64,000 nt of DNA from Lentisphaerota bacterium (GTDB lineage Bacteria > Verrucomicrobiota > Lentisphaeria > Victivallales > Victivallaceae): contig SUWF01000010.1 in NCBI GenBank assembly GCA_015061575.1, positions 1 to 64,000 of the forward strand, read 5' to 3'. Below the pieces are notes generated by a model that saw nothing but the letters and a program-made list of their open reading frames with translations, was not told where the DNA came from and searched no databases. The translations under genes were made by a program, and so were the position numbers. Positions 50,296-53,772 of the stretch are shown piece by piece; the first letter of the stretch is position 1; each line of letters starts with the position of its first letter.

Positions 50296-52869
50296 ATGTC
50301 CATCAAACACAAATTTTTAAGCTTGGCTGCATTGACCTGTGCTCTGGTGTTTTCTGCGGGGGCTGAGCAGCTGGAACTCTTTTCCGGATCAACCTTTCCA
50401 GCCGGATGGCAGCCGCAGCGCGGCAGCTGGAAATATGTAGCCAAAGCTGGCGAAAAATTAACTCTGACAGACTTTGCCGATTGCAATGTCAAAGATAAAA
50501 AGCGTTACTCTTACAGTACGGTAAAACGGCTTAAACCTCTGGTCGGAGATTTTACCGTGGAGTGGCATTTGACTTATGATCAGCGAGATATGGCATTTGT
50601 GGGGCAGGCAGTCATCGCATTGCAGGATCGCTCCGGCAAAACTCTGGCGCTGGCCGGTTTGGTGGACAGCCGGAATTTTGCTCCGGCAGCCTATTATTTT
50701 GAATCCGGAGCTAATAAAAACGGTAAATATGCTGCTCCGCTGAAAGCCTCCGATAAATTTGTGATCAGCCGTTCCGGCAAGCAGTTGAAGTTTTTTGTTG
50801 GCAGCCGTCAAATTATGGTCTGCGATGCTCCGGAACAGGAACTTGCGCAGATAAAACTGACTTTTGATTATGTAAAAGTCGCTGCCGATAAACGGGGTGA
50901 AGCCAGCCATTTTGCCGATTTTACGCTGGATAAACTGCTGATCAGATCCAGTGCTGTACCCGACTTGGCTGAGGAGGTAAAAGAAAAATTCTCAGGTGGA
51001 AAATTCAGCAGCGATTGGTATTCGCTGCCCGGATCGGTGCCGCTGAGTTTTGGCCAAAGTGAATATTTGCAGATCAATGGCTTTGATCCCGCAGTCACCG
51101 GTAAGAGCGAAAAAGCCACCTTCAAACATATTGTTGAACGCAGCTTTGGGCAACTGGATGGCGATTTTAATTTGCAGTGCCTTTTGGCGTGGGATCAGCG
51201 TGACCGGGCGTTTTGCGGCGTTGCCGAGCTGCGGCTGTTGGATATAAATGGCAAAACTGTAGTGCGTTTTGGGCTGGAAGATCCATGGAACGACCTCAAG
51301 TCCCGGCTGGTGGCATCCTGCGGGAATAAAAAGTTTGTCACCTTTGCTGCGATCGCTGGCGATGGCAAATTTACGGTGGTGCGTTCCGGCAATAAATACC
51401 GCCTGGCCATCCGGAATTGGCTGTTGCTGGAAGCCGAAGCGGAAGCTGTACCGGTCAATAAAGTGCAGCTGGCTTTTGTCTGGCACAAAAAGCCGCAGGA
51501 AAACAATAAAAAAACGTGGGCCCGGGCGACCCATTTTCTGGATTTTACCCTCAAAGAATTGAATATTCAAAGCGGTGCGCCGGCGGAACTGACTCAGCCG
51601 GTCGCCGCACCGCCGGAGCCGCCGACGGTTCCGTGGAAGCTGGATAAGCCGATCGTCAGCTATTGGGCCGGGCCGCCGATCAGCGAAAAAATGGCCCGGC
51701 AGCTGGCCGAAGGCGGCTACACTGTCGGCTGGGCAGAGGATGTTTTTGATTTGGATATGCTGCATAAATATGGTCTGAAAGCTTTTGCTGTATATAACCA
51801 TCGGGTCAAAGTGCCGATCACGCCTGAAGAAGAAGTCAACTATCGGAACTGGATAAACAGCATCAAGGATCATCCTGCTTTATTCATGTATCATTGCGGT
51901 GATGAAATGCACGTTACCCGCAAGCAGCGGTTTGCGCAAATGGTGGCGCTGGCATCCAAATATGATCCAAGGCATCCGACGTTCAACAATATGTATCCAT
52001 TTGGTGTGAACCACAAAGATTTAGGGCTGCCGGACATCAAAGGGGTCAAAGAACTGTACTTTGCCCATTTGGAAGAAGCCCGGAAACTGTGCAAGCTCAA
52101 AGTGCTGAGCTATGATCTCTATCACTTTGGCAATACCGGGGATGCGGCTGGATTTTTCTTCAATCAGGCTATGATCCGGGAAAAAGCACTGGAGTGGAAT
52201 GTGCCGAGTTTCAACATTGTGCAGGGCTGCCGGTGGCGGGCCAATTTGCGTGCGCCGTCAGAACATGAATACCGTTATCTGGGGTATGTGAGTTTGGCTT
52301 ACGGTTCCAAAGGTATGTCCCCCTACGTTTACGGCTGGAAAGGTCATCAGGATGCCATGGTCGAACCGGTTTCCGGGGAGCCGCTCAAACTCTATTACGG
52401 AGCGATCCGCACGCATAAGGAATTTGTGGCGATCGCCGGAGAGTTGATGAATTTGCGTTCTTTGAGTGTTTATCATGCCGGAGAGCTGCCCATTGGCGGT
52501 GTTGCGCTGCCGGATGATGCCAAATTCACCTTGTCGCCCAAGCTGCCCAGCGGCAAGCGGCATGACAGTTTGGAGTGTTACTCCGAAGGCAATTGGACAG
52601 CACCTGAAGCATTTGCACTGTATCCGCCGGTCAAAGGTTTTCTGCTGGGATACTTCGGGCAGGGCAAGGACGCCGATCATGTATTGGTGGTAAACTTGGA
52701 TTATCAGGAAAAACGCTCAACAACATTGCTTGCGCCGGGAGTTATGGAGCGGTTTGATCCGGCGCAGCGCAGTTGGAGCGCCGCCGGAAAAGATCGCATT
52801 GCATTATCAATCGAACCGGGCGGCGGCGTGCTGCTGCGTTTGCCGCCAGTAGCGAGTGCTGAGCGGTAG
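50296..52869 (+). CDS. Secreted glycoside-hydrolase-like protein with duplicated beta-sandwich domains
   Basis: An 857-residue exported protein with a signal peptide (residues 1 to about 23). Two related beta-sandwich domains follow: about 25-215 and 220-435. Both show a GDF, then YDQRDMAF or WDQRDRAF, then ATHFLDFTL or ASHFADFTL pattern, indicating an internal duplication and possible carbohydrate-binding modules. A TIM-barrel-like region at about 445-730 starts KPIVSYWAGPPISEKMA and contains HPALFMYHCGDEMH near 530, whose Asp-Glu could be catalytic, and YVSLAYGSKGMSPYVYGW near 674. A beta-rich C-terminus (about 770-857) follows. It resembles other unclassified Lentisphaerota hydrolases; family and substrate are not identified. 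Its stop codon lies inside the first repeat of the 52.9-kb island. Confidence 0.7.
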   Translation: MSIKHKFLSLAALTCALVFSAGAEQLELFSGSTFPAGWQPQRGSWKYVAKAGEKLTLTDFADCNVKDKKRYSYSTVKRLKPLVGDFTVEWHLTYDQRDMAFVGQAVIALQDRSGKTLALAGLVDSRNFAPAAYYFESGANKNGKYAAPLKASDKFVISRSGKQLKFFVGSRQIMVCDAPEQELAQIKLTFDYVKVAADKRGEASHFADFTLDKLLIRSSAVPDLAEEVKEKFSGGKFSSDWYSLPGSVPLSFGQSEYLQINGFDPAVTGKSEKATFKHIVERSFGQLDGDFNLQCLLAWDQRDRAFCGVAELRLLDINGKTVVRFGLEDPWNDLKSRLVASCGNKKFVTFAAIAGDGKFTVVRSGNKYRLAIRNWLLLEAEAEAVPVNKVQLAFVWHKKPQENNKKTWARATHFLDFTLKELNIQSGAPAELTQPVAAPPEPPTVPWKLDKPIVSYWAGPPISEKMARQLAEGGYTVGWAEDVFDLDMLHKYGLKAFAVYNHRVKVPITPEEEVNYRNWINSIKDHPALFMYHCGDEMHVTRKQRFAQMVALASKYDPRHPTFNNMYPFGVNHKDLGLPDIKGVKELYFAHLEEARKLCKLKVLSYDLYHFGNTGDAAGFFFNQAMIREKALEWNVPSFNIVQGCRWRANLRAPSEHEYRYLGYVSLAYGSKGMSPYVYGWKGHQDAMVEPVSGEPLKLYYGAIRTHKEFVAIAGELMNLRSLSVYHAGELPIGGVALPDDAKFTLSPKLPSGKRHDSLECYSEGNWTAPEAFALYPPVKGFLLGYFGQGKDADHVLVVNLDYQEKRSTTLLAPGVMERFDPAQRSWSAAGKDRIALSIEPGGGVLLRLPPVASAER

Positions 52870-52919
52870 AACCCCGGCAGGCTTGTCCGCCGTAGCCTCG
52901 TGCGAAGGTGGATGCCGGG
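52864..52919. repeat. Intergenic repeat copy 1 (TTGTCCGCC core with self-complementary arms)
   Basis: Begins CGGTAGAACCCC, which supplies the stop codon of the upstream gene. The core TTGTCCGCCGTAGCCTCG and the pair TCCGCC/GGTGGA form an inner stem. Outer arms CCCGGCA (52873-52879) and TGCCGGG (52913-52919) are perfect complements. Confidence 0.75.
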
Positions 52920-52975
52920 CGGCGACATCACTTCGCCTTGTCCGCCGGAGCCTTGTGCGTAGGTGGATCGCCGCC
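52918..52975. repeat. Intergenic repeat copy 2
   Basis: Shares the core (TTGTCCGCC, then GGTGGA) but has different outer arms: GGCGGCGA (52918-52925) and TCGCCGCC (52968-52975), again perfect complements. Its left arm overlaps copy 1 by 2 nt. Confidence 0.75.
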
Positions 52976-53030
52976 AGTATTTTTTGGGGCCGTGTAGTAC
53001 CATAGTGGCTCGGCCGCTGTCGTTGTTTTT

Positions 53031-53070
53031 ATAGGACTTATAGGACTTATAGGTCTTATAGGTCTTATAA
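53031..53070. repeat. Tandem 9-bp repeat, four units
   Basis: ATAGGACTT twice (53031-53048), ATAGGTCTT twice (53049-53066), then a partial ATAA. Non-coding; no spacer structure, so not CRISPR. Confidence 0.85.
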
Positions 53071-53094
53071 ATAAGCGCATGTCTACAATGATAG

Positions 53095-53114
53095 CGGCGG
53101 CGAAATCGCCGCCG
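53095..53114. repeat. Perfect palindrome with the same arms as repeat copy 2
   Basis: CGGCGGCGA and TCGCCGCCG separated by AA. The 8-nt arms GGCGGCGA/TCGCCGCC are identical to those flanking copy 2, but with no core between them. Confidence 0.7.
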
Positions 53115-53115
53115 G

Positions 53116-53151
53116 GTCTGTTATCGTCCGTTATCGTCTGTTATTGTCCGT
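53116..53151. repeat. Tandem 10-bp repeat, three and a half units
   Basis: GTCTGTTATC, GTCCGTTATC, GTCTGTTATT and a partial GTCCGT, alternating T and C at position 4. Confidence 0.8.
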
Positions 53152-53215
53152 ACTACTTAGCGCGCAAAACAGGCGTGCGCCTTACAACTGCACTCCGCCA
53201 GCAGCACGGGCGGCA

Positions 53216-53273
53216 CGGTAGAACCCCGATAGTTTGTCTGCCTTAGCCTCGCACGGAGGCGGATGCTGATCGG
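53216..53273. repeat. Intergenic repeat copy 3
   Basis: CGGTAGAACCCCG then TTGTCTGCC, TAGCCTCG and AGGCGGATGC: clearly homologous to copy 1 over about 55 nt. Outer arms CCGAT/ATCGG differ from copies 1 and 2 but still pair; inner TCTGCCT/AGGCGGA pairs with one G-T. Confidence 0.72.
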
Positions 53274-53343
53274 CCAGCCATCAGAGCAGCATGTCGCCTT
53301 CAAAAAACAGGTTTCGGCTGAACTGTCAAGTTTTTTTGTTTTT

Positions 53344-53772
53344 TTACAGATCTTTTTCGGATTCCTCAGCTTCGTATTCCCAATTACTGTTGGCATGGCT
53401 GCGGTCCCAGCGCTCCGGATGGCGGTTCTGCAGATAAAAAAGCAATGCCCGTACATCTGGCGGCACATCTTTGGTGATGGTGCGGCGTTTGAGCACTTCG
53501 AGTACTTCGCCGCTTTTTTTATCTACCAATTCCTCGGCCGAACTTTCGTTGATGGTAAAACCCAATGCTCGTTTGAGCAGCGCTTGTTCTGCCCGGTCAG
53601 CAGTGGAGGTTGCCTGCAAGGCTTCGGCCAGTTCCGGATGAGACTTTTTCCAGCGCAAAAATTGTTCCGTACTGACTCCCAGCAGATGGATGATCTCGTT
53701 TTCCGGCAGCCCGTGCCGGACAAATATGCCGGTGATCTGAGCTATTTCCCGGCGATAACGGTTATTTGACAT
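53344..53772 (-). CDS. Orphan phage terminase small-subunit-like HTH protein
   Basis: A 142-residue DNA-binding protein. An N-terminal helix-turn-helix (IVRHGLPENEIIHLLGVSTEQFLRWKKSHPE, residues about 17-47, quoted in part) is followed by AEQALLKRALGFTINESS. The C-terminal segment KDVPPDVRALLFYLQNRHPERWDR has the form (VPPD..A..F.L.NR.P..W) seen in phage terminase small subunits. No large terminase, portal or capsid gene is nearby, so it is a domesticated or remnant copy, or a regulator of that fold. ATG at 53772 has AGAGGA upstream. Downstream on its 3' side lies the repeat island. Confidence 0.68.
   Translation of the reverse strand: MSNNRYRREIAQITGIFVRHGLPENEIIHLLGVSTEQFLRWKKSHPELAEALQATSTADRAEQALLKRALGFTINESSAEELVDKKSGEVLEVLKRRTITKDVPPDVRALLFYLQNRHPERWDRSHANSNWEYEAEESEKDL

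Follow-up and report, generated by a model that had tools for sequence, protein, structure and literature searches.

A 30-nucleotide hairpin unit, probably mobile, in a Lentisphaerota repeat island and in about a dozen bacterial phyla

A mosaic repeat island between convergent genes

The window, as we call the whole stretch of DNA analysed here, comprises 64,000 nucleotides of a Lentisphaerota bacterium (contig SUWF01000010.1). A gene on the forward strand (50296–52869) and the next gene on the reverse strand (53344–53772) face each other with their 3' ends, and a mosaic repeat island (52843–53279, forward strand, as are all features of the island below) lies in this convergent gap. The island has 62 BLAST matches, full or partial, in dozens of places in the genome. 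Many of these matches are at contig ends, a position that repeats at which assemblies break would be expected to have. Several of the other islands are likewise flanked by convergent genes, and others by codirectional or divergent ones. In four genomes of the same genus (G001–G004), an orthologue of the neighbour gene is present, there is no core in the DNA examined, the upstream gene is not adjacent and contig ends are near.

An earlier sequence-only reading had named the upstream gene a hydrolase, which is not borne out as it matched no Pfam family. That reading also had the first repeat copy supply the stop codon of this gene. The TAG (52867–52869) is indeed in repeat DNA, but it belongs to an island module (CCGCCAGTAGCGAGTGCTGAGCGGTAGAACCCCG, 52843–52876, second copy at 53195–53228) that provides the last codons and the stop, and it lies about 12 nt upstream of the hairpin unit.

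A 32-nt sequence occurs three times in direct orientation in the island (52882–52913, 52937–52968 and 53233–53264). With 91% and 78% identity of the latter two to the first over these 32 nt, the three repeat copies originally reported are real. The quoted arms are likewise present on either side of each copy: CCCGGCA (52873–52879) and TGCCGGG (52913–52919), GGCGGCGA (52918–52925) and TCGCCGCC (52968–52975), and CCGAT (53226–53230) and ATCGG (53269–53273). Unit 1 (31 nt, 52882–52912) has, by its sequence and predicted fold, a CTTG tag, a TCCGCC/GGTGGA stem and the loop GTAGC-CTCGT-GCGAA. It occupies the loop of a first putative target palindrome (CCCGGCA / TGCCGGG, 52873–52919), the empty form of which, CCCCGGCAGATGCCGGG, is found elsewhere in the genome. 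Unit 2 (31 nt, 52937–52967) is of the sequence type GGAG..GTAGG and lies inside a second palindrome (52918–52975) that shares 2 nt with the right arm of the first and whose empty form, GGCGGCATCACTTCGTTCGCCGCC, also occurs elsewhere in the genome. Unit 3 (31 nt, 53233–53263) is degenerate. The right flank of the pair that surrounds it (53226–53273) is unique in the genome, where no empty form of these flanks was found.

The island further contains 9-mer repeats (TTATAGGAC/TTATAGGTC, 53028–53071), a perfect hairpin with no unit in its loop (GGCGGCGAAATCGCCGCC, 53092–53115) and 10-mer repeats (GTCCGTTATC, 53116–53151). The latter direct repeats come after the GC-rich hairpin. The corresponding place in other islands holds ten-base repeats of TCCGTACNNN, which come after another hairpin. 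A long AT-rich palindrome (GGCCATTTTTATTTTTGC...GCAAAAATAAAAATGGCC) adjoins many islands of this genome (L010–L038, e.g., L011, L018 and L020), but the window copy lacks it. Immediately to the right of many units (L001, L209, L216 and others) is a second hairpin module (GCCGGGCnnnnGCCCGGCAGCTCCG).

The conserved part is a 30–31-nt unit with a covarying inner stem

The conserved part of the repeat is the unit CTTG-TCCNCC-GNAGC-N(3-6)-GCGNAG-GNGGA, which is generally 30 nt long and 31 nt long in the window's genome. With up to 3 mismatches, 58 copies were found in this 2.86-Mb genome, and none with a reversed control pattern, so the core is far too frequent to be due to chance. For the bare 9-mer TTGTCCGCC, enrichment in the window is only weak (3 occurrences versus 0.7 expected, a count of 3 being reached by 4 of 100 shuffles). 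The 104 distinct copies from other genomes share CTTG (mostly C-T/C-T/C-G) and TCCGCC-GNAGC-N(3-6)-GCGNAG-GNGGA, and their sequence conservation ends at positions −4 and +2. A downstream AG is weakly preferred in these copies (0.46 and 0.39 bits), and there is no CCA. Positions −2 to +2 read T/C-G-T-C, with T (71/104) or C (21/104) at −2 and G (88/104) at −1, whereas the TC that follows was fixed by the search pattern and is constant there by design.

By itself, the unit is predicted to fold as a hairpin with a 6-bp TCCNCC/GGNGGA stem, a GNA/GNA internal loop, GC/GC pairing and an apical stretch of 3–6 nt. The T-A pair between the TC of the tag and GA, which is paired in the predicted fold, was invariant in 40 cores. 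As stem letters were partly fixed in the first search, covariation was tested with a pattern that freed three stem positions per side. Among 94 cores from 44 genomes, the fourth stem pair was T-A in 30, G-C in 25, G·T in 18, A-T in 7 and others in 14. It was a Watson–Crick pair in 62 cores versus 30 expected (0 of 20000 shuffles) and, at one core per genome, in 31 of 44 versus 15.4 expected. The pair-count covariation score of the inner stem was 0.113 versus 0.038 in shuffles (0 of 500), with every slid control lower; these shuffle statistics ignore relatedness among the genomes. The inner stem of the unit truly covaries, with G-C, T-A and A-T pairs.

Outer arms as putative insertion targets

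The outer arms had been said to pair in every copy, and their covariation had been taken to imply selection. In the window's genome, at least five contiguous Watson–Crick pairs are formed by the arms in only 26 of 61 distinct core contexts, and the arms are missing or unpaired in the remaining 35. None of the 20 copies with a GATAG left flank has outer pairing of at least 5 bp. Only one variable arm pair (CCCGxC / GyCGGG) is homologous between copies; it is A-T in 7 cases, an A·C mismatch in 7, G·T in 2 and G-C in 2, and compensatory changes among the genome-wide copies are thus absent where they could be compared. The arm sets of the three window copies are three different, non-homologous ones, and left flanks (CCCGrCnGG, GATAG, GGCGGC) and right flanks (TGyCGGGCGGCG, TGCCGGGC, TCGCCGCC) mix freely in the genome. 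For the outer arms, the step from covariation to selection fails, as these appear to be different targets and not one compensated structure.

The double hairpin seen in the window also occurs without units (L002, L005, L019 and L034), with the first unit only (L027) and, as in the window, with both (L012), and each step from empty to one to two units is exactly 31 nt. As empty, half-filled and doubly filled forms differ by 31 nt per unit, we infer that the outer arms lie outside the unit and are the arms of palindromes that the unit entered.

A different composite repeat, with flanks ACTTACTTG and TGAAGTCGCTCCC, is found in several genera (L211 on C79 of the window's own genome, L379 in G141 and L380 in G207) and holds a TCCACC/GGTGGA version of the unit. 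L379 and L380 also contain another unit, with arms CTCGC/GCGAG and CTCCC/GGGAG in matching context, which is possibly a compensatory change in target arms. In G103, where no Y1 transposase was detected, the unit lies repeatedly between GAGCAGG and CCTGCTC in a multicopy composite (L372–L376).

Exact insertion and nesting in other genomes

Excision of exactly 30 nt restores the phase of tandem repeats at several places in other genomes: L144 (GGACTTT heptamers, two units), L098, L105, L384 (a TTGC repeat, two units) and L385 (two units). CGTC-type REP hairpins with the unit in their loop were found in L151, L166, L168, L117, L163 and L139. Of these, L166, from the isolate Bradyrhizobium sp. 138, combines a filled CGTC-type hairpin and an empty hairpin (GTCATTGCGAGCGCAGCGAAGCAATCC) 3 kb away at one locus. 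Neither the empty/filled alignments nor the phase-restoring removals revealed a target-site duplication. The unit is also nested in itself: a permissive screen yielded 22 candidates, about 12 of which we judged clear. In each clear case, the inner copy lies at CCGN|AGC or a mutated version of it. On a contig of Candidatus Tantalella remota (L128, around 51–76), units are three deep at one internal position.

Flanks that pair over at least 6 bp surround 14 of the 104 copies from other genomes versus 2.1 expected (0 of 2000 shuffles). With nested copies dropped the figure is 15 of 130 versus 2.4 expected, and on viral contigs it is 6 of 76 versus 1.4 expected (2 of 1000 shuffles). In a small set restricted to the window's phylum (27 copies), there was no significant excess of such flank stems. 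As paired flanks are found in a minority of copies (about one in eight outside the window's genome), hairpin loops seem to be favoured and not required. The local copies were mostly amplified along with the island and thus do not represent independent events.

Three readings of the paired arms had been raised: a selected cruciform, an RNA hairpin and a mobile element entering palindromic targets. Empty and filled sites, phase-restoring insertions, nested self-insertions and excess arm pairing across unrelated genomes support the last of these. From these sequence comparisons, we consider it probable that the core is a miniature mobile REP-like hairpin, which inserts as an exact unit without target duplication and favours palindrome loops such as those of CGTC-type REPs and its own.

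Distribution of the unit

The unit is found in about a dozen phyla, on at least 118 GTDB contig stretches. Among the GTDB matches listed are Bacteroidota, Pseudomonadota (several Bradyrhizobium isolates), Acidobacteriota, Omnitrophota, Verrucomicrobiota/Lentisphaerae/Kiritimatiellaeota, Elusimicrobia, Planctomycetota, Chloroflexota (Anaerolineales), Actinomycetota, Spirochaetota, Sumerlaeota and several Patescibacteria. These phyla were taken from record titles; contamination of metagenome-assembled genomes may inflate their number, and some single matches in GC-rich genomes may be due to chance. Of 289 genomes sampled from the window's phylum, 56 contain the core, and the reversed control gave 0 in all listed genomes. 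The earlier mention of similar motifs in Verrucomicrobia-group genomes is thus correct but too narrow, as many other phyla carry the core. The unit also occurs on 77 stretches of IMG/VR viral contigs (L257–L333) and may be transferred from host to host by phages or prophages. A plasmid collection searched with a 30-nt query gave no match. The searchable open literature, a scope that excludes subscription papers and preprints, contained no prior description of the unit, and matches to the literal motif were primers and chance strings.

Possible mechanism and alternative explanations

In the window's genome, two adjacent target hairpins would each have received a unit, after which the nested palindromes so formed would have multiplied and been shuffled within the mosaic island of about 400 bp. 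As the absence of target-site duplications and the preference for hairpin loops fit single-strand insertion, the unit may move in folded single-stranded form, into loops that are exposed as single strands. Two routes seem likeliest, and we rate them about equal: a Y1/HUH-type single-strand transposase of another replicon or of a former host could act in trans, or replication or repair could copy the unit by template switching into hairpin tips. A bolder version of the latter, which we regard as speculative although conceivable, is that a 30-nt hairpin spreads across phyla without a dedicated transposase, via host replication and repair into single-stranded hairpin tips, its own included. If so, palindromes would grow like nested dolls.

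The unit resembles REPs in its size, its palindromic fold, its intergenic mosaic islands and its spread over several phyla, and some high-copy relatives (G052, G057 and G060) have 12–20 Y1 transposase matches, as might be expected of a GTAG-type REP that is mobilised by a RAYT, the Y1 transposase of the host. However, our enzyme search, which covered Y1 transposases (PF01797), found no match in the window's genome (94% complete). In 38 RAYT neighbourhoods of seven relatives the core does not flank the gene, with one spurious match only. Among 289 genomes, PF01797 is present in 42 of 56 carriers of the core versus 171 of 233 non-carriers (odds ratio 1.09, p = 0.87). As the unit also lacks a 5' GTAG tag outside the stem, mobilisation by a host RAYT is unlikely.

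Local replication slippage or template switching could also produce nested and expanded palindromes, with no transposition between sites. Palindromes are hot spots of template switching, and doubling the left and the right half of a unit yields a nested copy. However, inner and outer units are often unlike in sequence (L142, L340 and L202), and the unit lies in unrelated targets, among them REPs of other families and simple tandem repeats whose phase is exact, for which local slippage does not account. This explanation, too, is unlikely.

It is highly improbable that the 55-nt element as a whole, with its outer arms, forms a single selected cruciform or RNA hairpin kept by compensatory changes: all three window copies can be folded with their arms (as RNA, z = −1.3, −0.8 and −2.1) and the 412-nt island folds better as RNA than shuffles do (z = −3.9), but the arms are so often absent or unpaired and show no covariation at homologous positions, nothing is conserved across phyla beyond the 30-nt unit, and Rfam 15 has no covariance-model match in the window region and 7 other loci. 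A selected structure is thus refuted for the arms as the conserved part, and the inner hairpin alone may have a conserved RNA role.

Insertion of a mobile hairpin would explain "covarying" nested palindromes that are open to confusion with structured RNAs, as well as repeat islands where assemblies break. CGTC-type REPs, which look mobile and are found in many phyla without a transposase, have been puzzling since 2013. The mechanism is made testable by the clear pairs of empty and filled sites, by the constant point of self-insertion (CCGN|AGC) and by the exactness with which the unit enters hairpin loops.

Comparison with known repeat systems

Like MITEs, the unit is non-coding, palindromic and multicopy. 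Unlike MITEs, it is just 30 nt long, has no separate terminal inverted repeats with internal DNA and makes no target-site duplication. The GTAG REPs and REPINs of the RAYT/TnpA-REP system are similar in size, hairpin fold and mosaic clusters. However, the tag of the unit is CTTG/CCTG, with a GTAG string only inside the loop of some copies, no RAYT co-occurs with it in the window's genome, and the RAYT genes examined in relatives are not flanked by it.

Di Nocera, De Gregorio and Rocco (2013, PMC3733652) define both GTAG and CGTC REPs, and state that the latter have no transposase. CGTC-tagged REPs occur in several phyla and include Rickettsia RPE-4/RPE-6 and Neisseria dRS3; many copies have TGTC in place of CGTC, and some copies lie within genes (PMC3733652). 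Insertion inside palindromes was reported for GTAG-23 of Thermomicrobium and GTAG-15 of Anabaena, and the CGTC REP family CGTC-1 of Halothiobacillus was reported inside larger palindromes (PMC3733652). By definition, a CGTC REP has an unpaired CGTC (or TGTC/CCTC) tag, an 8–9 bp stem that starts with A-T pairs, a loop of 4–5 nt and a 3-nt tail that is mostly CCA (PMC3733652). Like these REPs, the unit is a short palindrome with a C/TGTC-like tag at one end, is found in multiple phyla and in larger palindromes, and has no associated transposase (as far as Y1 enzymes are concerned). Unlike them, it has the TC of its tag base-paired, its TCCNCC/GGNGGA stem has 6 bp followed by an internal loop and GC/GC, and it has no CCA tail. 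The loops of genuine CGTC REPs are among its insertion sites, which makes the unit an element in its own right. The unit behaves like a REP and is nearest to the CGTC-tagged ones, yet it departs from parts of their published definition.
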